Origin: Actinomycetota bacterium
Lineage (GTDB): Bacteria; Actinomycetota; Thermoleophilia; Gaiellales; Gaiellaceae
Assembly: GCA_005883955.1 (NCBI GenBank)
Contig: VAXH01000059.1
Span: 1-49,633 of the forward strand
DNA length: 49,633 bases
Direction of reading: 5' to 3'
Shown here: positions 1 through 42,827 of the stretch, piece by piece
Numbering within the stretch: the stretch's first letter is position 1
Layout: each line of letters begins with the position of its first letter
Program-made: the position numbers and the translations under genes
Notes under the pieces: model-generated
What the model was told of the DNA's origin: nothing
Database searches by the model: none
The model's input: only the letters and a program-made list of their open reading frames with translations

Positions 1-1
1 C

Positions 2-1786
2 AACCACATGATCCAGGCGCTGAAGGCGCAGTCTCTGTACCACCGCGACGACGACTACGTGATCCAGGACGGCGAAGTCAAGATCGTCGACGAGTTCACT
101 GGCCGGATCATGGAAGGCCGGCGGTGGAGCGAAGGCCTCCACCAGGCCGTCGAGGCGAAGGAGGGTGTCGCGATCCAGGAAGAGCACGTGACGCTGGCGA
201 CGATCACGCTCCAGAACTACTTCCGCCTCTACGAGAAGCTCGGCGGCATGACCGGTACGGCCAAGACCGAGGAGAAGGAGTTCGTCGAGATCTACGGCCT
301 TCACGTCGTCGAGATCCCGACCAACGTTGCAGTCGCGCGCGACGACCATAACGACTTCATCTTCAAGACGGAGGAGGCGAAGTTCAACGCGGTCATCGAC
401 GACATCGTCGAGCGCCACGAGAAGGGCCAGCCCGTCCTCGTCGGCACGATTGCGGTCGAGAAGTCGGAGTACCTCTCGCAGCTGCTCCAGCGGCGCGGCG
501 TCCCGCACAACGTGCTGAATGCGAAGGAGCACGAGCGTGAGAGCGAGATCATCAAGGACGCCGGCCAGCCGCACGCGGTCACGATTGCGACGAACATGGC
601 CGGCCGCGGCGTCGACATCAAGCTCGGCGAAGGGATCACTGAGCTCGGCGGTCTCTACGTGCTCGGCACCGAGCGCCACGAGGCGCGCCGGATCGACAAC
701 CAGCTGCGCGGGCGCTCAGGCCGCCAGGGCGACCCCGGCGAGACCCGCTTCTACCTCTCGGGTCAGGACGAGCTCGTCCGCCTCTTCGCCGGCGACCGGA
801 TCCACAACATCATGGAGCGCTTCAAGGTGCCCGACGACCAGCCGATGGAGGCGGGCATCCTCTCGCGCCAGATCGAGAACGCGCAGAAGAAGGTCGAGGA
901 GCAGAACTTCGTCGCGCGGAAGAACGTGCTCAAGTACGACGACGTCCTCAACAAGCAGCGCACCGTCATCTACGAGCAGCGCCGGCGCGTCCTCGAGGGC
1001 CAGGACCTGTCGGAGGAGGTGCGCGCCTGGGTCGACGAGGTGATCGCGCGCATGGTCGCCCACTTCACCGAGAACGATTACGCCGAGGAATGGGATCTCG
1101 AAGGCCTGGTCAAGGCGATGGACGCGACCTACGTGCAGCCGCCCGAGGAGCTGATCACTGTCGATGAGCTCCGCGAGGACCTCGGCTCGCTGACTCGTGA
1201 GACGCTGATCGAGGACTTCACCGAGGAGGCGCAGGAGCGTTACGCGGCCAAGGAGCAGGAGCTCGGCCCGGAGCTTATGCGCGAGCTCGAGCGCTTCATC
1301 ATCCTCCAGGTCGTCGACACGCGCTGGCGCGAGCACCTCGAGAACATGGACTACCTGCGCGAGGGCGTGCACCTCCGCGCGATGGCCCAGAAGGACCCGC
1401 TCGTCGAGTACACGTCCGAGGGCCACCTGATGTTCGAGGAGCTGAACGCTGCGATCCGCGAGGAGGTCGTCGGCCATCTCTTCCACGCGCAGCTCGAGCC
1501 GCAGGACGCCGACGAGCTGCAGCGCCTGCAGGAGGCGCAAGCCGCCGAGGCCGCGGGGCTCGCGTACGAGCACAACCAGGTCGCCGGCTCGCAGGCGATC
1601 GGCGCAGCCGCTCTGGCCGACGGGGGCAGTGGGAACGGCGCCTCGGTCACGGCGGGCGGCCTCTTCGCCGGCGGCGGCTCGGTGGCGACCGCGACGCGGA
1701 CGGTCGCCCCCCGCGAGAAAACGGGCCGCAACGACCCGTGCTGGTGCGGCTCGGGCAAGAAGTTCAAGAAATGTCACGGGGCTTAG
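2..1786 (+). CDS. secA: Preprotein translocase subunit SecA, C-terminal part (5' end outside window)
   Basis: Open reading frame continues to the window edge; motifs TNMAGRGVDIKLG, LRGRSGRQGDPG and the C-terminal zinc motif GRNDPCWCGSGKKFKKCHG. Confidence 0.97.
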   Translation, partial: NHMIQALKAQSLYHRDDDYVIQDGEVKIVDEFTGRIMEGRRWSEGLHQAVEAKEGVAIQEEHVTLATITLQNYFRLYEKLGGMTGTAKTEEKEFVEIYGLHVVEIPTNVAVARDDHNDFIFKTEEAKFNAVIDDIVERHEKGQPVLVGTIAVEKSEYLSQLLQRRGVPHNVLNAKEHERESEIIKDAGQPHAVTIATNMAGRGVDIKLGEGITELGGLYVLGTERHEARRIDNQLRGRSGRQGDPGETRFYLSGQDELVRLFAGDRIHNIMERFKVPDDQPMEAGILSRQIENAQKKVEEQNFVARKNVLKYDDVLNKQRTVIYEQRRRVLEGQDLSEEVRAWVDEVIARMVAHFTENDYAEEWDLEGLVKAMDATYVQPPEELITVDELREDLGSLTRETLIEDFTEEAQERYAAKEQELGPELMRELERFIILQVVDTRWREHLENMDYLREGVHLRAMAQKDPLVEYTSEGHLMFEELNAAIREEVVGHLFHAQLEPQDADELQRLQEAQAAEAAGLAYEHNQVAGSQAIGAAALADGGSGNGASVTAGGLFAGGGSVATATRTVAPREKTGRNDPCWCGSGKKFKKCHGA

Positions 1787-34443: not shown

Positions 34444-35703
34444 TCAGTTGGAGCTCGGAACGAAGGCGTACACGCGGCGATAGCCGACGACGTAGAGGCG
34501 ATGCGAGTCCGCGACCACCGGGGTGTACTCGCCGTCGGGGTAGATCCAGAGCGCACGGCCGGTCCGGGCATCCAGACCGTAGGTGCGGTTCGCGAGGGTC
34601 GAGAAGTAGACGATCCCGTTGACGACGCTCGACGAGCCGGAGATCTTGCCGTTCGCGTGGAAGCGCCACCGGACATTGCCGGTCGCGGCATCGAACGCAT
34701 AGAAGACGCCGTCGAGCGAGCCGATCAGGACGAGATCCCGCCAGACGGCCGGGGAGGCGTAGACGTAGCCGCCGGTCGTGTACGACCAGCGAAGCTTGCC
34801 GCTGCCGGCACCGTAGGAGTAGACCTTCCCGTCCGTCGAGCCGATGAAGACCCGACCGTGGGCGATCGCGGGCGATGAGTAGAACCAGCCGGTGTGCCCG
34901 AGCCGCTGCTGGGCCGAGGCGCGCCAGACCTCCTTGCCGGTGCGAGCGTCGAGTGCGTAGACGTGGCTGTCGTAGGAGCCGATGTAGATCTTTCCGTCCG
35001 CGTACGACGGGGAGCCTTTCACCGCGCCACCGGCTGTGAAGACCCAGCGCGGTTCGCCGGTCCGAGCGCTCAGGGCGTAGACGTGGCCGTGCCAGTCGCC
35101 GGCGTAGACGAGACCGCCGACGACGAGCGGTGACGACTCGCAGGGGCCCAGGCGGAAGCGCCAGCGAACCTCACCGCTCCGTTGCGCGTAGGCGACGATC
35201 TCTCCGTCCGTTCCGGGAATCGGCGACCCACATTTGTGGCCGATGTAGGTGTTGATGACGAGCCGGTGCCACACGACCGGCGTTCCCCAACCGCAGCGGC
35301 CCGAGCGGTGGCGCCAGAGAAGTCGTCCGGTGCTCGCGTCGAGCGCGAGGAAGCGACCGTCCCAGGTCGGCAGGAAGAGCTTCCCGTACGCGACGGCCGG
35401 CGGGAACTCGAGCAGCGTCGCGTTGTTGTTGAAGGCCCAGACACGTCGGAACGGCGGCCGCAGCCGGTAGCCGGCGTCTCGCGTGCCGGCGAGGTCGAAG
35501 CCGTAGCGCGGCCACGCGACGCCCTCGGGCGGCGCCGTCGGCCGCGCCTGTGTGGTCACGAACTCGACGGACGACGAGCCGTGGATGTTGCGGAACTCGT
35601 GCTTGCGGTGGAGCACGAAGGCGGTCAGGCCGGCAACGGCGAGCAGCGCACCGGCGAAGATGATCGCCGGCCATCCCCGCAAGGAGAGCCGACGGTTGCT
35701 CAC
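34444..35703 (-). CDS. Membrane-anchored PQQ-like beta-propeller repeat protein
   Basis: Start GTG 35703; repeats such as VYALSARTGEPRWVFTAGGAVKGSPSYADGKIYIGSYDSHVYALDARTGKEVWR. Confidence 0.9.
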   Translation of the reverse strand: MSNRRLSLRGWPAIIFAGALLAVAGLTAFVLHRKHEFRNIHGSSSVEFVTTQARPTAPPEGVAWPRYGFDLAGTRDAGYRLRPPFRRVWAFNNNATLLEFPPAVAYGKLFLPTWDGRFLALDASTGRLLWRHRSGRCGWGTPVVWHRLVINTYIGHKCGSPIPGTDGEIVAYAQRSGEVRWRFRLGPCESSPLVVGGLVYAGDWHGHVYALSARTGEPRWVFTAGGAVKGSPSYADGKIYIGSYDSHVYALDARTGKEVWRASAQQRLGHTGWFYSSPAIAHGRVFIGSTDGKVYSYGAGSGKLRWSYTTGGYVYASPAVWRDLVLIGSLDGVFYAFDAATGNVRWRFHANGKISGSSSVVNGIVYFSTLANRTYGLDARTGRALWIYPDGEYTPVVADSHRLYVVGYRRVYAFVPSSN

Positions 35704-37028
35704 TGCCCCGCCCGATCGTTGCCGAGGTGCGTCCAGAGATTGTTCACGAGCTGCTGGACGCGGACGTTGTCGCGAATTCCGCCGGCGAGCGTGAACGCGC
35801 CGGCCGCGAAGACCTTCGCTCCGGCCTTCGTCTCGTAGTAGGTCATCTGAGCAGTCATTCCGCGGCCGTAGAGGTTCGGGATGTCGGCGACGACCCGGAT
35901 CGACTTCGGCGACGCTGACGTCGTCCAGTCGGCCTCGATGCCGCCGGTCGACAACACGGAGCCGTTGTGGATGCTCATGCCGGCGAAGAGCCACGGGAAC
36001 GTGCCGGTGTTGCGGACGATCCAGTTGCCGCGGTGCTCGCCGCTGTCGTTGTGGAAGTACTCGACGCCGAGGAGCGCCGCTTCCGGGCGGCCGAGGTCGC
36101 GCCACTTGATGACGCGGTACATCACGCGGCCGTGGATCACGATCTTCCAGTAGAAGTTGTTGGCGGAGAGGAAGACCAGGTTTCCGCCGCGATTCCGATA
36201 GTCGGTGACCGCGTCGTACTCGTGCGTGGTCACGTACTCGTGATGGCCGGAGAAGATGAGCAGCGAGTAGGCCTTCGCCAGCTGGCGCCCGCTCGCGTGC
36301 TTCAGCTCGGCGTCGGAGATGATGTCGACGTCCTTGTGGGTCTGGACAAGCCAGCGCAGCCACCAGGCCTCGTAGTGCTTGAAGTGCGGCGGCGTGCCGC
36401 GGTCGAGGAAGGGCCGGCCGAGCCGCGCGCTGTGCTGACATGCACACGCGTACCAGGTGTCGGCTCGCCCGTCGCCGTTGTCGTCGCGGTGGTTGTAGGC
36501 CTGCCACGTCTGCGTCGGGATAACGACCGCGACGCGGTTTACCCCGAGGTGCTTCGGCAGGAGCACGAAGGGCGCATAGCCGACCCGGCCGCCCGGGGCG
36601 GTGAGCTGGACGAAGTAGACGCCGCTCGGCCAGTCGCCGAGATGAACGTTCACGATCCGCCGGCCTGAGACGTGACCGATCGCGCGCTTTGCTGTCATCG
36701 GGACGCCGGTCATCGTGTCGTTGCCCATAATCGGGCCGGTCTCGGGTCCGACGTGCCGGATCTGGATCGAGACGGCGGGAGCCTTGTCGGTGATGACGAG
36801 ACGGGCGACGCTGTTCGGTCCGTAGCTCTCGAGCGGGAACGCGGCTTCGACGGTGGGCTTGTCCGAGCTCTGTGCCGCGACGTCGCGGCCATCGTCCTCG
36901 TCGTACCCGTACACCGGCAGCACCTTCGAGTGACCTGCGCCGACGACTGTTGCTGCGAAGACAAGGGTGAGGATCTGAAGCGTGCGGCGCCGTGCGCCGG
37001 CGAACTGGATGTGCGAGTTGGTAGCCAT
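35700..37028 (-). CDS. N,N-dimethylformamidase large-subunit-like C-terminal-domain protein
   Basis: VAVVIPTQTWQAYNHRDDNGDGRADTWYA...LLIFSGHHEYVTTHEYDAVTDYRNRGGNLVFLSANNFYWKI. Confidence 0.78.
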   Translation of the reverse strand: MATNSHIQFAGARRRTLQILTLVFAATVVGAGHSKVLPVYGYDEDDGRDVAAQSSDKPTVEAAFPLESYGPNSVARLVITDKAPAVSIQIRHVGPETGPIMGNDTMTGVPMTAKRAIGHVSGRRIVNVHLGDWPSGVYFVQLTAPGGRVGYAPFVLLPKHLGVNRVAVVIPTQTWQAYNHRDDNGDGRADTWYACACQHSARLGRPFLDRGTPPHFKHYEAWWLRWLVQTHKDVDIISDAELKHASGRQLAKAYSLLIFSGHHEYVTTHEYDAVTDYRNRGGNLVFLSANNFYWKIVIHGRVMYRVIKWRDLGRPEAALLGVEYFHNDSGEHRGNWIVRNTGTFPWLFAGMSIHNGSVLSTGGIEADWTTSASPKSIRVVADIPNLYGRGMTAQMTYYETKAGAKVFAAGAFTLAGGIRDNVRVQQLVNNLWTHLGNDRAGQ

Positions 37029-37129
37029 GGCCCGACGCTCGGGCCGAGCCCCAACCGCTCAGTCATGGCGCACCAACGGCCGGCTAACGGGCCATATCCA
37101 CCGCCCTCAGAAGGTGCTACAAAAGTCAC

Positions 37130-38761
37130 GTGCTCGAATTTCGGATTCTCGGACCGCTCGAGGTCGCCGACGGCGAAGAGGTGCTCCAGCTCAGCGGGCA
37201 GAAGCAGCGCGCGCTGCTGGCGCTCCTGCTGCTTGACGCGAACAGGGTTGTCTCGACGGACCGGATCGTGGACGCGCTCTGGGGTGAGGAGCCGCCTCGA
37301 ACTGCGGCGACCTCGTTGCAGAACTTCGTTTCGCAGCTTCGGAAGCTGCTCGGCTCTGACGTGCTGGTCACGAAGCCGCCCGGCTACCAGTTGAGGATCG
37401 CCCCGGAGCAGCTCGACCTCGAGCGGTTCGCGCGCCTCGTCGACGAGGCGCGAGAAGAACCGCCCAGCGAGCGTGCCGCGAAGCTCCGGCGCGCCCTCGC
37501 GCTCTGGCGCGGCCGGCCGCTTGCCGATCTCGGCTTCGAGGCGTTCGCGCAGCAGGAGATCGGACGCCTCGAGGAGCTACGGCTGGCGGCGCTCGAGGAT
37601 CGCGTCGGGGCGGAGCTCGAAGCGGGCCGTCACAGCGACCTGGTCGGCGAGCTCGAGGCCTTCGCCGACGAACACCCGCTGCGCGAGCGGCTTCGCAGCC
37701 AACTGATGCTCGCGCTCTACCGCTCGGGCCGGCAGGCGGAAGCGCTCCAGATCTACCACGACACTCGGCGCGTCCTCGTCGACGAGCTCGGGATCGAGCC
37801 CAGCCCGGCGCTGCAGCAGCTGCACGGCGCGATCCTGCGCCAGGACCCGGGGCTCGAGGAGGGGCCACCGGTCCCAGCGGTGGCCGAGGACCGGATCAAG
37901 GACGTCGTCGAGACGATGCTGGCCGGCCGGCTCGTGCCGGTTCTCGGAGCCGACGTCGCCGACCTGACTGTGCGGCTGGCCGAGAGGTTCGAGTATCCGG
38001 CGAACGGGAGTGCGCTTCCGCAGGTCGCCCAGTACATCGCCGTGATGAAAGGCTCCGGGCCGCTCTACGACGAGCTGCACGCACTCCTCGATCCCGATCT
38101 GCCGCCGACCGCGCTCCACCGCTTCTTCGCGGCCCTACCGTCGCTCTTGCGCGGGCGGGGCGCTCCCCACCAGCTGATCGTGACCACGAGCTACGACCTG
38201 GCGCTCGAGCGCGCGTTTCTCGACGCGGGCGAGGAGTTCGACGTCGTCTCGTATCTCGCCGCCGGCCGCAACCGCGGCAAGTTCTGCCATGTCGCGCCCG
38301 ATGGAACCGGGACGTTGATCGAGGTGCCGAACACATACGCGACCGAGCTCTCGCTCGAGCGCCGCACGATCATCCTCAAGCTCCACGGCCAGGTCGGGCG
38401 TAGCGCCGAGGAACGGGAGTGGGAGAGCTTCGTCGTCACCGAGGACGACTACATCGAGTACCTGGCGCAGTCCGAGGTCGCGAGCGTCGTCCCGGTCGCG
38501 CTGGGCGCCAAGCTGCGGCGCAGCCACTTCCTCTTTCTCGGCTACACAATGGCCGACTGGAACCTGAGGCTGCTGCTGCACCGGCTCTGGGGCGACCAGC
38601 CGCTCAGCTACCGGTCCTGGGCTGTCCAGCCGGAGCCGATGCCGATCGAGCGCGAGTTCTGGCGCCGCCGTGACGTCGACGTGCTCGAGATCCCACTCGA
38701 GCGCTACGTCGCGGCTTTGGCCCGGCAAGCAGGGCTCGAGCTCACAGAGGCTCCGGCGTGA
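37130..38761 (+). CDS. SARP/BTAD-type regulator fused to a SIR2-like domain
   Basis: N-term FRILGPLEVADGEEVLQLSGQKQRALLALLLLDANRVVSTDRIVDALWGEEPPRTAATSLQNFVSQLRKLLG plus BTAD; C-term LVPVLGADVADL, VTTSYDLALERAF, ILKLHGQVGR, FVVTEDDYIEYL, HFLFLGYTMADWNLRLLLHRLWG. Confidence 0.9.
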   Translation: MLEFRILGPLEVADGEEVLQLSGQKQRALLALLLLDANRVVSTDRIVDALWGEEPPRTAATSLQNFVSQLRKLLGSDVLVTKPPGYQLRIAPEQLDLERFARLVDEAREEPPSERAAKLRRALALWRGRPLADLGFEAFAQQEIGRLEELRLAALEDRVGAELEAGRHSDLVGELEAFADEHPLRERLRSQLMLALYRSGRQAEALQIYHDTRRVLVDELGIEPSPALQQLHGAILRQDPGLEEGPPVPAVAEDRIKDVVETMLAGRLVPVLGADVADLTVRLAERFEYPANGSALPQVAQYIAVMKGSGPLYDELHALLDPDLPPTALHRFFAALPSLLRGRGAPHQLIVTTSYDLALERAFLDAGEEFDVVSYLAAGRNRGKFCHVAPDGTGTLIEVPNTYATELSLERRTIILKLHGQVGRSAEEREWESFVVTEDDYIEYLAQSEVASVVPVALGAKLRRSHFLFLGYTMADWNLRLLLHRLWGDQPLSYRSWAVQPEPMPIEREFWRRRDVDVLEIPLERYVAALARQAGLELTEAPA

Positions 38762-41700
38762 GCGCGGTCGCGGCGCCGCCGAGTCCCTACAAGGGGCTGG
38801 CGCCGTTCGACGACTCCGAACTCGACGCGCTGCTCTTCTTCGGCCGCGAGCGCGAGATCGAGGTGATCGTCGCAAACCTGATGGCCTCACGCCTGACCGT
38901 CCTCTTCGGCGCGAGCGGAGTTGGCAAGACGTCGCTGCTGCAGGCCGGCGTCGCGCATCGCCTGAGGCGGGAGCAGAACGCCGTCGTGGTCGTCTTCTCG
39001 GCGTGGACTGGCGACGCGGTGGCGAACTTGCTCGACGCCGTCGAAGTTGCGGCGGGCGGCGATGCCGGTGCCTTACGCCGAGGCGGGCCGCTCGCGGACG
39101 TGCTCGCCGCGTGGACGCGGCGGCTCGACACCGAGCTGTACATCGTGCTCGACCAGTTCGAGGAGTACTTCCTCTACCACGAGAACGAGCACGGGCCGGG
39201 CACGCTCGCGGAGGAGCTCCCGGAAGCGCTGCGCCGAGCCGGCCTCCGCGTCAACTTCCTGATCGGGATCCGAGAGGATGCGCTGGCGAGCCTCGACGCG
39301 TTCAAGGCCCGGATCCCGAATCTGTTCGGGAACTCGCTGCGGGTCGACCGGCTCGAGCGAAGCGCCGCCCGGGCGGCGATCCTCGGTCCGCTCGACCGCT
39401 ACAACGAGCTCGTCCCGGCGGGAGAAGGCGTCGAGGCGCAGCCCGAGCTCGTGGAGGCGGTTTTGGACGAGGTAGCTGCCGGCCGCGTCGATCTCGGGCT
39501 GTCCGGTCGCGGCGGCGTCGGCGAGGAAGACTCCGACCGGATCGAAGCCCCCTATCTCCAGCTCGTCCTCGAACGGCTTTGGGAGGTCGAGACGAGCCGC
39601 GGCTCGAATCGGCTGCGGCTCGAGACCCTGCGCGAGCTCGGCGGCGCGGCCCACATCGTCGAGGATCACTTGGAGCGGGCGATGGCGGCGCTCTCGCCGG
39701 ACGAGAAGGACGCCGCCGCCGCGATGTACAACCACCTCGTCACGCCGTCGGGCATGAAGATCGCGCATCGGGCCGGCGATCTCGCGGGTTACGCGTCGAT
39801 CGGGGAGGCCGAGACCCAGCACGTGCTCCAGCGCCTAGTCGAAGAGCGGATCGTCCGCGCCGCCGAGAACGGGGCGGAAGGTCCGCGCTACGAGATCTTC
39901 CACGACGTCCTCGCCGAGGCCGTGTTGGCCTGGCGGACCGAGCACGAGGCGGAGCGGAAGCTCGAGGCCGAGCGCGAAGCGGCGGGGCGACGCCACCGGC
40001 GCCTGCTCGCCCTGGCAATCGGGGCGCTCGTTCTGATTGCGATTCTCGGTGCGATCGCCGTCTATGCGCTCGTGCAACGTGGCGACGCTCGCAGCCAGGC
40101 GCATCGAGCCCGGGGCCGGGAGCTCGCCGCCAGGGCGCTGACGAGCGCGCCGGTCGACCCGGAGCAGGCCGTGCGGGATGCAGTGGAGGCGACTCGCTAC
40201 GAGCGCTCTCCCGCTGTTGCGAACGTGCTACGCGCAACGCTGCTCGGAATGCGGGTGAAAGCGGTCTTGCCGGCCGGCGGAAAACCTGTCGGCGACGTCG
40301 ATTTCAGCCCGGACGGAAAGCTCTTGGTCGTTGCCGGTGGCGACGGGCTTGCGCGGATCTACCGCGCGTCCGACGGGAAGCATCTACGCGACTTGCGCCA
40401 CGGGTCTGCGCTATCTGCTTCGGTCTTCAGCCCCGACGGAACCAAGATCGCGACGGCCGGCGACGACTCGGCTGCGCGGCTCTGGGATGCGAAGAGCGGC
40501 GCCTTACTGCACGTCTTGCGACACGGAGGTCCTGTCACGAGCGCAAGCTTCTCGCGCGACGGGCGCCTGCTCGCGACCACGAGCGACGACAAGACGGCAC
40601 GGATCTGGGACGTCTCGAGCGGCCGCCAGCTACAGCGACTCGAGCACCCGGGAGGCGTCTGGTCGGCCTCGTTCAGCGGCGACGGCGAGCTGCTCGTGAC
40701 GACGCTCGTGCCGGCGGCCTTCGATCGAACCGCCCGCGTCTGGGACGTTGCGAGCGGAAGGCTTGTCGAGCGCCTGCAGCGGCCCGACCGGATGACGGTG
40801 GCGCGCTTTGCACCGACGGGTCCGCTCGTTGTGACGGCGGGTTTGGGTCACGTCGCGCAGGTCTGGAACGCACGATCGGGTAGGCAGGTGCACCCGCTCA
40901 TCGGGCACTCGTCGGGGATCGAAGACGCCGAGTTCAGCGCGTCCGACCGCCAGATCGTCACGGCGAGCACCGACGAGAGCGCCCGCGTCTGGGACACCGC
41001 GACGGGTGGACTCGTCGGCGTGCTGACTGGCGCTCAAAACTTCGTCCTGCGCGCGACCTTCAGCCCCGACGGCCAGTGGGTCGCAACTACGAGCAGAGAT
41101 CGAGTTGCGCGGATCTACGAACCGAACGGCACGCTGCGCGTGACGCTTGTGGGTCACCGAGACTCGGTCACGCACGTTGCGTTCAGCGCGGACGGCACTT
41201 CGATTGCCACCGCAAGCGCAGACGGAACGGCGCGACTCTGGGACCCTCGCGTGCAGCCTGATCTCGTTCCGCTCGGCACTCAGCGAGGCAACGAGGTCGC
41301 CGCCGTCGCGTTCAGCCAGGACGGCCGCCGGGTCGTCAGCGCCGGAACGAACGGGACGGTGCGGGTCTGGCGCGTTGGCGTACCTGGCCATGCGGTGGCG
41401 ACGCTGAGACCCAGGAGCCGGGTAACCGCAGTAGCCATCAGCGGCGACGGCCGCCGGTCGGCGACCGCCGGTCCGGACGGATCCGTACAGGTTCGCGATG
41501 TCTCCTCCGGCCGCTCCGTATCCGTGATTCACGACGTCGGAGCCGTGCGAGCGCTCGCACTCAGCCTTCGAGGACGGCAGCTGGCGGTTATCGGCAAAGA
41601 CGGCCGCGCGCACCTGTGGGATGTCGACGGGCAGCAATCCCTACGGACGGTCGGCGACAAGGTGCATGCGGTCTCATTCAGTGCCGATGGAGGACGGCTC

Positions 41701-42189
41701 GTGACCGCAGGCTCGGATGCGATCGCCCGCATCTGGGACGTCAAGAGCGGCAAGCCGGTCACGCCGCCGCTTGCCGGCCACCATGATTTGCTCACGTCTG
41801 CGTCGTTCAGCCACGACGGTCGTTACGTCGTCACGACGAGCCGCGACCACGATGCCCGGGTCTGGGACGCCCGAACGGGTCGACGGATCTGGACACTTGC
41901 AGGCTCATTCGCGCAGATCAACAGCGCAGCTTTCAGCTCCGATGACCGCTGGGTCGTCACTGCAGGGCCGGCCGCAACCGGGATCTGGGACATGGAGACC
42001 GGACGCCGACTGCTGGCGGTCAACGGGCGCGACCACCCGCTGACCGCCGTGGCGCTTTCGCCGCAGGGATGGCGGATCGCCGCCGGTGGCTTCGGCGGGA
42101 CCGTCAAGACCTACGACTGCCGGCTCTGCGGGAATATCGACGATCTAGTCTCGGTGGCGCGGCAGCGGCTCGCGCACCTTCGTCACTAG
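38758..42189 (+). CDS. nSTAND-type NTPase with TM segment and C-terminal WD40 repeats
   Basis: GTGA overlap with the previous gene; PYKGLAPFDDSELDALLFFGREREIEVIVANL, Walker A GASGVGKTSLLQAG, Walker B LYIVLDQFEE, TM RLLALAIGALVLIAILGAIAVYAL, about 15 WD40 units. Confidence 0.93.
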   Translation: MSAVAAPPSPYKGLAPFDDSELDALLFFGREREIEVIVANLMASRLTVLFGASGVGKTSLLQAGVAHRLRREQNAVVVVFSAWTGDAVANLLDAVEVAAGGDAGALRRGGPLADVLAAWTRRLDTELYIVLDQFEEYFLYHENEHGPGTLAEELPEALRRAGLRVNFLIGIREDALASLDAFKARIPNLFGNSLRVDRLERSAARAAILGPLDRYNELVPAGEGVEAQPELVEAVLDEVAAGRVDLGLSGRGGVGEEDSDRIEAPYLQLVLERLWEVETSRGSNRLRLETLRELGGAAHIVEDHLERAMAALSPDEKDAAAAMYNHLVTPSGMKIAHRAGDLAGYASIGEAETQHVLQRLVEERIVRAAENGAEGPRYEIFHDVLAEAVLAWRTEHEAERKLEAEREAAGRRHRRLLALAIGALVLIAILGAIAVYALVQRGDARSQAHRARGRELAARALTSAPVDPEQAVRDAVEATRYERSPAVANVLRATLLGMRVKAVLPAGGKPVGDVDFSPDGKLLVVAGGDGLARIYRASDGKHLRDLRHGSALSASVFSPDGTKIATAGDDSAARLWDAKSGALLHVLRHGGPVTSASFSRDGRLLATTSDDKTARIWDVSSGRQLQRLEHPGGVWSASFSGDGELLVTTLVPAAFDRTARVWDVASGRLVERLQRPDRMTVARFAPTGPLVVTAGLGHVAQVWNARSGRQVHPLIGHSSGIEDAEFSASDRQIVTASTDESARVWDTATGGLVGVLTGAQNFVLRATFSPDGQWVATTSRDRVARIYEPNGTLRVTLVGHRDSVTHVAFSADGTSIATASADGTARLWDPRVQPDLVPLGTQRGNEVAAVAFSQDGRRVVSAGTNGTVRVWRVGVPGHAVATLRPRSRVTAVAISGDGRRSATAGPDGSVQVRDVSSGRSVSVIHDVGAVRALALSLRGRQLAVIGKDGRAHLWDVDGQQSLRTVGDKVHAVSFSADGGRLVTAGSDAIARIWDVKSGKPVTPPLAGHHDLLTSASFSHDGRYVVTTSRDHDARVWDARTGRRIWTLAGSFAQINSAAFSSDDRWVVTAGPAATGIWDMETGRRLLAVNGRDHPLTAVALSPQGWRIAAGGFGGTVKTYDCRLCGNIDDLVSVARQRLAHLRH

Positions 42190-42827
42190 TTTTGGTCAGC
42201 CGCTGCGCTGGGGCTCAGCGGAGGCTCTTCCAGCTTGGGCGAGAGCGGCGGGAGCTGAGCACCGGGCGGGCGAAGCAGGGGTTCGGTCGACCGAGCCGAT
42301 TCGATCACCGGGCCCAGCGGCGGCAGTGAGGAGGGTTTCGGCGGCTCGTCGACGACCGGCAGGGCAGCTTCAGCCGCAACCGCCTCGCGGACGGCGGTCG
42401 GTGGAGCCGATTCGATCACCGGGCTGAGCGGCGGCAGCGAGGGAGGCTTCGCTGCCTCCTCGACGACCGGTGCGGCCTGCGCCGTGACGGTCGTTACCGC
42501 CTCGGCGACGGCGGACGTGACGCGCCGCTCGATCTCGAGCTGGAAGATCGCGCTTTGGGCCTGTACGCGGTAGCGGAAAGCACGCCCCTCGCCGACGACC
42601 CAGCCGACGAGGATCCCGATGAGGGCACCGACGATGATCGTTGCGACACCGAAGCCCGCCGGGATGCCCCAGACCGACCTGAGCGGCGTCAGCGGCACCG
42701 CGCCGACGAAGACGCCGAAGATGCCGCCGCCGACCGCGCAACCGACCCGGACGGTATCTGCCTTCCGCAGGAGCTGGTCGGCGAAGCGCTCGATGATCTT
42801 GGGGTCATAACCGGCCGCAGAAGACAT
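42186..42827 (-). CDS. Two-TM hypothetical protein with Pro-rich repetitive tail
   Basis: MSSAAGYDPKIIERFADQLLRKADTVRVGCAVGGGIFGVFVG...; tail repeats PVVxExxKPxSLPPLxPVIESA. Confidence 0.7.
   Translation of the reverse strand: MSSAAGYDPKIIERFADQLLRKADTVRVGCAVGGGIFGVFVGAVPLTPLRSVWGIPAGFGVATIIVGALIGILVGWVVGEGRAFRYRVQAQSAIFQLEIERRVTSAVAEAVTTVTAQAAPVVEEAAKPPSLPPLSPVIESAPPTAVREAVAAEAALPVVDEPPKPSSLPPLGPVIESARSTEPLLRPPGAQLPPLSPKLEEPPLSPSAAADQN
42293..42470. repeat. Two diverged 67-bp direct repeats (42293-42359, 42404-42470), period 111 bp, inside the gene
   Basis: gagccgattcgatcaccgggc[cc/tg]agcggcggcag... present twice. Confidence 0.85.

Follow-up and report, generated by a model that had tools for sequence, protein, structure and literature searches.

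We analysed a window, meaning the whole stretch of 49,633 nt, from an Actinomycetota bacterium of the Gaiellaceae (GCA_005883955.1, contig VAXH01000059.1), in which a module of two open reading frames occupies positions 37130–42189. The pair and its parts, all on the forward strand (+), were as follows:

37130–38761 (+): ORF1, 543 aa, SARP plus SIR2-like domain (Pfam, PDB sequence matches, AF2 and Foldseek)
ORF1 residues ~1–242 (+): SARP part, OmpR-type wHTH plus BTAD (Pfam, PDB sequence matches to AfsR/EmbR, Foldseek)
ORF1 residues ~255–539 (+): SIR2-like part (Pfam SIR2_2, PDB sequence matches to KomC/DSR2/ThsA, Foldseek)
38758–38761 (+): GTGA stop/start overlap of 4 nt, the GTG start of ORF2 lying on the TGA stop of ORF1
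38758–42189 (+): ORF2, 1143 aa, nSTAND1 plus one TM helix plus WD40 double propeller (Pfam, alignments, AF2)
ORF2 residues 10–400 (+): nSTAND1 NTPase (Pfam, alignments)
40006–40062 (+), ORF2 residues ~417–435: TM helix (hydropathy over homologues)
40255–42117 (+): WD40 array of about 14 blades (Pfam, AF2)

Both reading frames and their GTGA overlap lay exactly where the initial annotation had placed them. ORF1 was matched by Pfam to BTAD (9.5e-46), Trans_reg_C (7.7e-10) and SIR2_2 (2.6e-20), and its AF2 model had a mean pLDDT of 87. An OmpR-type wHTH followed by a BTAD, the arrangement that defines the SARP family, was found by both Pfam and Foldseek; the N-terminal half superposed on AfsR (TMt 0.92, 1.5 Å, 47% identity), and the C-terminal half resembled the SIR2 domains of ThsA, KomC and DSR2 (E about 1e-9). 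The proposed junction of a SARP wHTH-BTAD regulator with a SIR2-like domain was thus borne out by Pfam and AlphaFold/Foldseek alike, the C-terminal match to SIR2 folds included. In the alignment with AfsR, the backbone-contacting residues W74, P79, S91, R94 and K95 were retained as W51, P56, S68, R71 and K72, and the base-reading residues T88 and R92 were replaced by N65 and Q69, which is compatible with a different DNA sequence preference.

SARPs such as EmbR and AfsR bear diverse C-terminal sensing domains (PMC10936776 for AfsR); our literature search found no paper on a SIR2-SARP fusion or on this gene pair. Among the relatives, the SARP-SIR2 proteins of G011 (L056 7929–10184) and G044 (L047 859–2853 and upstream) carried an additional N-terminal class III nucleotide-cyclase-like domain, the G044 copy appearing to be frameshifted near its start. 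Another BTAD protein, in G066 (G066:C22:8000-14141, L185), ended in a region similar to universal stress proteins, and its gene was convergent to one for a Ser/Thr kinase-nSTAND protein; fusions of SARP domains to many partners occur in genomes of the Gaiellaceae.

ORF2 was matched to nSTAND1 (3.6e-46) and contained 12 WD40 stretches detected by Pfam. Its AF2 model consisted of the NTPase, a long helix and about 14 propeller blades, with enough strands in residues 500–1120 for two 7-bladed propellers. The Walker A lysine and Walker B aspartate (GxxGVGK and LD motifs) were invariant across the aligned relatives, and the protein combined Walker A/B motifs, a STAND core and C-terminal repeats, as expected of STAND NTPases. 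Pfam, hydropathy and AF2 therefore agreed with the architecture first described for ORF2, namely an nSTAND NTPase, one TM helix and a long WD40 array. The helix was present in every SARP-linked homologue examined by hydropathy; because the flank on the NTPase side was the more positive (5–9 positive residues, versus 2–5 on the WD40 side), the topology suggested for ORF2 is NTPase inside and WD40 outside the membrane. The last 4 nt of ORF2 were shared with a small reverse-strand gene that had no Pfam match (42186–42827).

A SIR2 relative was found in 22 genomes among 151 related genomes, and relatives of the module in 23/103 family genomes and in 24/399 of the class sample; these genomes were mostly metagenome-assembled and incomplete, their genes were called by a simple codon-usage method, and the loci share ancestry, so the counts are not independent events. 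The phylum sample (397 genomes) added a single pair, which was unfused, and the SARP-SIR2 relatives (about 22 loci) came from one bacterial family and one outlier. A partial SIR2 match in G007, a distant fragment, was left out of the analysis, and matches on plasmids were distant (at most 31% identity). Wherever the contig continued, an nSTAND gene lay directly downstream of the SIR2 relative, so that the conserved pairing which the initial annotation had made a check of its reading was recovered. The 4-nt NTGA overlap was kept in all complete ORF1/ORF2-type junctions (20/20), which argues that the coupling of the two reading frames is not due to chance. Judged by this conservation of order and overlap, pairing of ORF1 and ORF2 is obligate, and they are probably translationally coupled.

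Degeneration of the SIR2 motifs

Three codons of ORF1 were compared with the corresponding positions in a motif table over the relatives:

37952–37954 (+): Asp275 in the SIR2 phosphate loop, GAD for GAG
38189–38191 (+): Ser354 where SIR2 has its catalytic Asn, TTSYD for TTNYD
38384–38386 (+): His419 of the HG motif (KLHG), retained

ORF1 fits the SIR2 NADase class by its fold and its HG-motif histidine, and lacks the asparagine of TTNxD and the GAG loop (TTSYD and GAD instead). The catalytic asparagine was kept in only 3 of the 22 SARP-fused relatives and was Ser, Gly, Ala or Asp in the other 19, and the full set of GxG, Asn and His was present in one (G011 alone). Most SARP-fused relatives had Asp or Glu as the third, phosphate-loop residue of GxG, and several had Gln, Tyr, Arg or Asn in place of the HG-motif histidine; in most of the genus g31 both catalytic residues were gone (TTGYE, LQG). 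His419 and a TEDD motif were kept in ORF1 and in its clade.

The position of Ser354 is equivalent to N133 of DSR2 and N110 of PaAvs5. In PaAvs5, defence is abolished by N110A, and likewise by Ala or Gln at the position equivalent to HG (PMC12931631), and in DSR2, NADase activity is lowered by N133A or H171A (PMC10981675). NADase activity has apparently been lost, or nearly lost, in the SIR2 domain of the SARP-fused proteins, judging from these residues; the role of NAD+-depleting effector first assigned to it does not sit with motifs degraded in nearly all SARP-fused members, ORF1 included. Given that His419 is retained in ORF1 and its clade, some NAD binding, or a role related to NAD without hydrolysis, may persist.

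All SIR2 motifs were intact in four unfused SIR2 plus nSTAND pairs (G005 and G177, both of the same phylum as the window, Nonomuraea gerenzanensis and Ensifer adhaerens). One group with moderate support (77/86) held the SARP-fused SIR2 proteins in the tree, the two most distant unfused SIR2 proteins being long branches; such a topology fits one fusion followed by repeated motif loss. In N. gerenzanensis (L099 7962–11014) and on plasmid pB of E. adhaerens (L102 4935–9940), a motif-intact unfused SIR2 gene is followed by an nSTAND-type gene, and we regard both pairs, from their sequences, as candidate two-gene NADase conflict systems.

Divergent operon and predicted operator

The region upstream of ORF1 is shared with a divergent operon, and contained the following features:

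34444–35682 (−): next gene in the divergent operon (its second), encoding a PQQ/BamB-like propeller that has an N-terminal TM (Pfam; kept with the module in 11 loci)
35700–37028 (−): divergent gene, exported DMFA2_C-domain protein, predicted target (Pfam 4.2e-52; orthologues divergent in relatives)
37035–37040 (−): GAGCGT, the -10-like box of the divergent gene; its ATG follows after 6 nt (leaderless), and the first heptamer is 10 nt away
37051–37090 (+): predicted operator of four heptamers at 11-bp spacing (repeat scans of intergenic regions)
37051–37057 (+): operator heptamer CCAACCG
37062–37068 (+): operator heptamer GTCATGG
37073–37079 (+): operator heptamer CCAACGG
37084–37090 (+): operator heptamer CTAACGG
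37118–37123 (+): TACAAA, the -10-like box of ORF1, whose GTG follows after 6 nt (leaderless)

A gene for an exported protein diverged from the SARP gene in every locus whose upstream side could be read (22 of 22), either of the DMFA2_C type (14 loci) or M23-peptidase-like (8 loci, including that of G044, where the gene caller missed it and it was identified by eye). The PQQ/BamB-like propeller gene was often the next one. In the outlier G116, the M23 gene lay downstream of the pair instead, and the unfused loci G005 and G177 had neither a divergent DMFA2_C gene nor an M23 gene, and no operator. Since DMFA2_C genes occur in 60 of the 103 family genomes, their co-occurrence with the module across genomes is uninformative. 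In one module-free genome (G045:C1:806000-818000, L183), a DMFA2_C gene at the SLT-coaE locus had a different BTAD/AAA regulator nearby; DMFA2_C genes may therefore be SARP targets more widely. Several genera carry the module at a core locus, adjoining uvrB or SLT-coaE-rpsA, and its neighbours in the window encode an ABC1-family kinase, a glyoxalase, a universal stress protein, parts of an ABC transporter and a cupredoxin-like protein.

An adjacent pair of CTAACGG heptamers at a period of exactly 11, with at most one mismatch per heptamer, was found in 17 of 23 upstream regions (shuffled control: mean 0.025, maximum 1), the consensus having been learned from the same loci on which it was scored; other periods from 7 to 30 were found in 0–2 regions each. 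In 21 of 22 loci, 10 nt separated the nearest heptamer from a GASSGT box, and 6 nt separated this box from the start codon of the divergent gene; the single exception was a box miscalled by one base. The strict pattern occurred once in the 2.56-Mb genome, at 37073–37090. The less circular evidence for the operator consists of the 11-bp period, the fixed phase and this single genomic occurrence.

Over the 103 family genomes, the strict pattern gave 12 matches at module loci (in 11 genomes) and 5 elsewhere, versus 6 for the reversed control. A wide regulon was rejected, the off-module matches to the strict pattern being about equal to that control; with one occurrence in the genome as well, the regulator seems, on this pattern search, to be dedicated to its own divergent promoter. 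The five other matches (G058:C54:515, G055:C108:30788, G033:C12:7680, G033:C18:15003 and G075:C228:1261) could be due to chance or could be extra targets.

In promoters activated by AfsR, the 11-bp repeats span -40 to -19, ahead of the -10 (PMC10936776), and SARP sites in general consist of heptamers with 4-nt spacers (PMC10972967); the repeats and their distance from the -10 at the module loci have the same geometry. Read toward the divergent gene, the heptamer is CCGTTAG, and CGTT is common to the AfsR repeat. Heptameric direct repeats with an 11-bp period beside the -10/-35 of a target are a mark of the SARP family, and the module shows them. The initial annotation had taken a conserved tie to a metabolic gene cluster as grounds for giving up its reading, and the divergent exported-protein genes, together with the SARP-type operator, amount to a conserved tie to another gene cluster.

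A putative membrane-linked regulator and its alternatives

We consider it likely that ORF1 and ORF2 form a split, membrane-linked SARP-STAND transcription regulator of the divergent envelope-protein operon, in which SIR2 serves as an adaptor. The proposal is built on what was read from the sequence: architecture, pairing, SIR2 motif decay next to invariant ATPase motifs, the divergent gene and operator geometry. The WD40 double propeller of ORF2, predicted to lie outside the membrane, would detect a postulated signal, upon which the cytoplasmic nSTAND1 ATPase would change state and probably oligomerise. The SIR2 domain of ORF1 would be the docking adaptor by which ORF2 controls the SARP, a step inferred solely from the conserved pairing and the 4-nt overlap. 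The SARP half of ORF1 would bind the four 11-bp repeats lying in tandem within the divergent promoter, and would recruit RNA polymerase to the DMFA2_C gene and its PQQ-propeller neighbour, presumably as an activator rather than a repressor. A paralogue in the same genome (C20; L038 2402–6574) has BTAD, nSTAND1, TM and WD40 in a single chain, without SIR2, and provides an internal precedent for SARP-STAND coupling; the strict CTAACGG operator was absent at its locus. The SARP of AfsR is held in check by its STAND and TPR parts, an inhibition that ATP lifts (PMC10936776).

The purely regulatory role that the initial annotation had kept as a fallback is thus favoured by the decayed SIR2 motifs, the divergent gene and the operator. 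Its division of labour, with sensor and oligomerisation switch in one protein and transcription factor and SIR2 fold in the other, was supported; of the two outputs it had linked to signal detection, transcription stood, and NAD+ chemistry did not, given the degraded motifs.

A ligand-gated SARP, whose degenerate SIR2 pocket binds NAD+, ADP-ribose or another nucleotide unhydrolysed and so merges a metabolic with a surface signal, is in our view unlikely. His419 and the TEDD motif are kept in the clade of the window, DSR2 H171A retains NAD+ binding (PMC10981675), and EmbR and AfsR illustrate how diverse the sensing domains on SARPs can be; however, a dinucleotide should be repelled by the Asp or Glu that replaces the glycine of the phosphate loop, and members of genus g31 have lost both pocket residues and yet kept the same operator and target.

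We find it quite improbable that the module is a split NLR/Avs-like anti-phage or conflict system, in which WD40 would sense an invader, nSTAND oligomerise, SIR2 deplete NAD+ and the SARP add to or autoregulate expression. The closest SIR2 folds do belong to the defence proteins DSR2, ThsA and KomC, PaAvs5 combines SIR2 and STAND in anti-phage defence (PMC12931631), and motif-intact unfused pairs exist; patchy presence (23/103 family genomes) would suit a defence gene as well, and leaves some room for a conflict role. Against this stand the loss of Asn in 19 of the 22 fused members, the acidic phosphate-loop residue and the loss of His in several, as well as the conserved divergent exported-protein gene with its dedicated predicted operator. 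A defence-island context was rejected, no defence proteins being found around the window copy by PADLOC and neighbour annotation, and relatives occupy core-gene locations. PADLOC gave only weak sub-domain similarity of ORF1 to ThsA, an Avs2 match with E 0.07 over 50 residues and, among the neighbours, an FtsX/MacB permease and a generic ABC ATPase. The Avs-like label first given to the module is therefore disfavoured, with an envelope-protein gene rather than a defence gene beside it and with two chains where Avs proteins hold effector, STAND and sensor in one. A viral or mobile origin was likewise rejected, as scans of viral contigs returned no relative and plasmid matches did not exceed 31% identity. 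A dual output, with regulation of the divergent gene plus weak or conditional SIR2 activity (e.g. deacylase or slow NADase) in some members, is hardly plausible: G011 has GAG, TTNYD and HG alongside the SARP fusion and operator repeats, but it is one of 22, and ORF1 of the window lacks the Asn.

The proposed regulator shares with AfsR-type large SARPs (SARP-NB-ARC-TPR) and with single-chain BTAD-nSTAND1-TM-WD40 proteins a SARP output under a STAND ATPase with a repeat sensor, and with the AfsR type also 11-bp direct repeats overlapping the -35 at near-identical spacing to the -10. It differs in being split into two overlapping genes with SIR2 between SARP and STAND, in the membrane anchor and WD40 propellers of its STAND protein, and in a strict operator found only at its own divergent promoter. 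Membrane-linked OmpR-type activators such as ToxR and CadC also tie extracytoplasmic sensing to an OmpR-type DNA-binding domain, but in one polypeptide, whereas here an ATP-driven STAND switch would lie in between. In Avs5, a SIR2 fold is likewise functionally joined to a STAND NTPase with C-terminal repeats, within one chain that has nSTAND3 and an intact TTNxD and acts by NAD+ hydrolysis; in the window, the ATPase is nSTAND1, and SIR2 belongs to the partner protein, where it is joined to a transcription factor and has degraded motifs. ORF1 has the SIR2 fold and residual motifs in common with the NADases DSR2, ThsA and KomC, but neither Asn nor GAG, no SLOG/HEAT/HAM1 partner and no sign of a defence context.

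The unfused pairs have the same gene order and homologous SIR2 and nSTAND-type proteins, with intact SIR2 motifs and without a SARP; the SIR2 domain of ORF1 probably descends from a catalytic SIR2 partnered with nSTAND in such an older two-gene system. We lean slightly towards a single domestication of an immune-type SIR2 plus STAND pair in this soil actinobacterial family, in which SARP fusion was followed by repeated decay of the enzyme, and STAND came to drive a divergent envelope-protein operon through its former effector as adaptor.

STAND/NLR proteins with effector domains are usually taken to act in defence. The present locus is a testable case in which an effector fold persists, its chemistry is apparently gone and a transcription factor is the output, with both operator and target predicted. 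For annotation, the combination of SIR2 and STAND is no ground for inferring NAD+-depleting immunity until its catalytic motifs have been checked. If the proposed history is true, the family would document a path by which a suicide effector of an NLR-like system can turn into a transcription factor.
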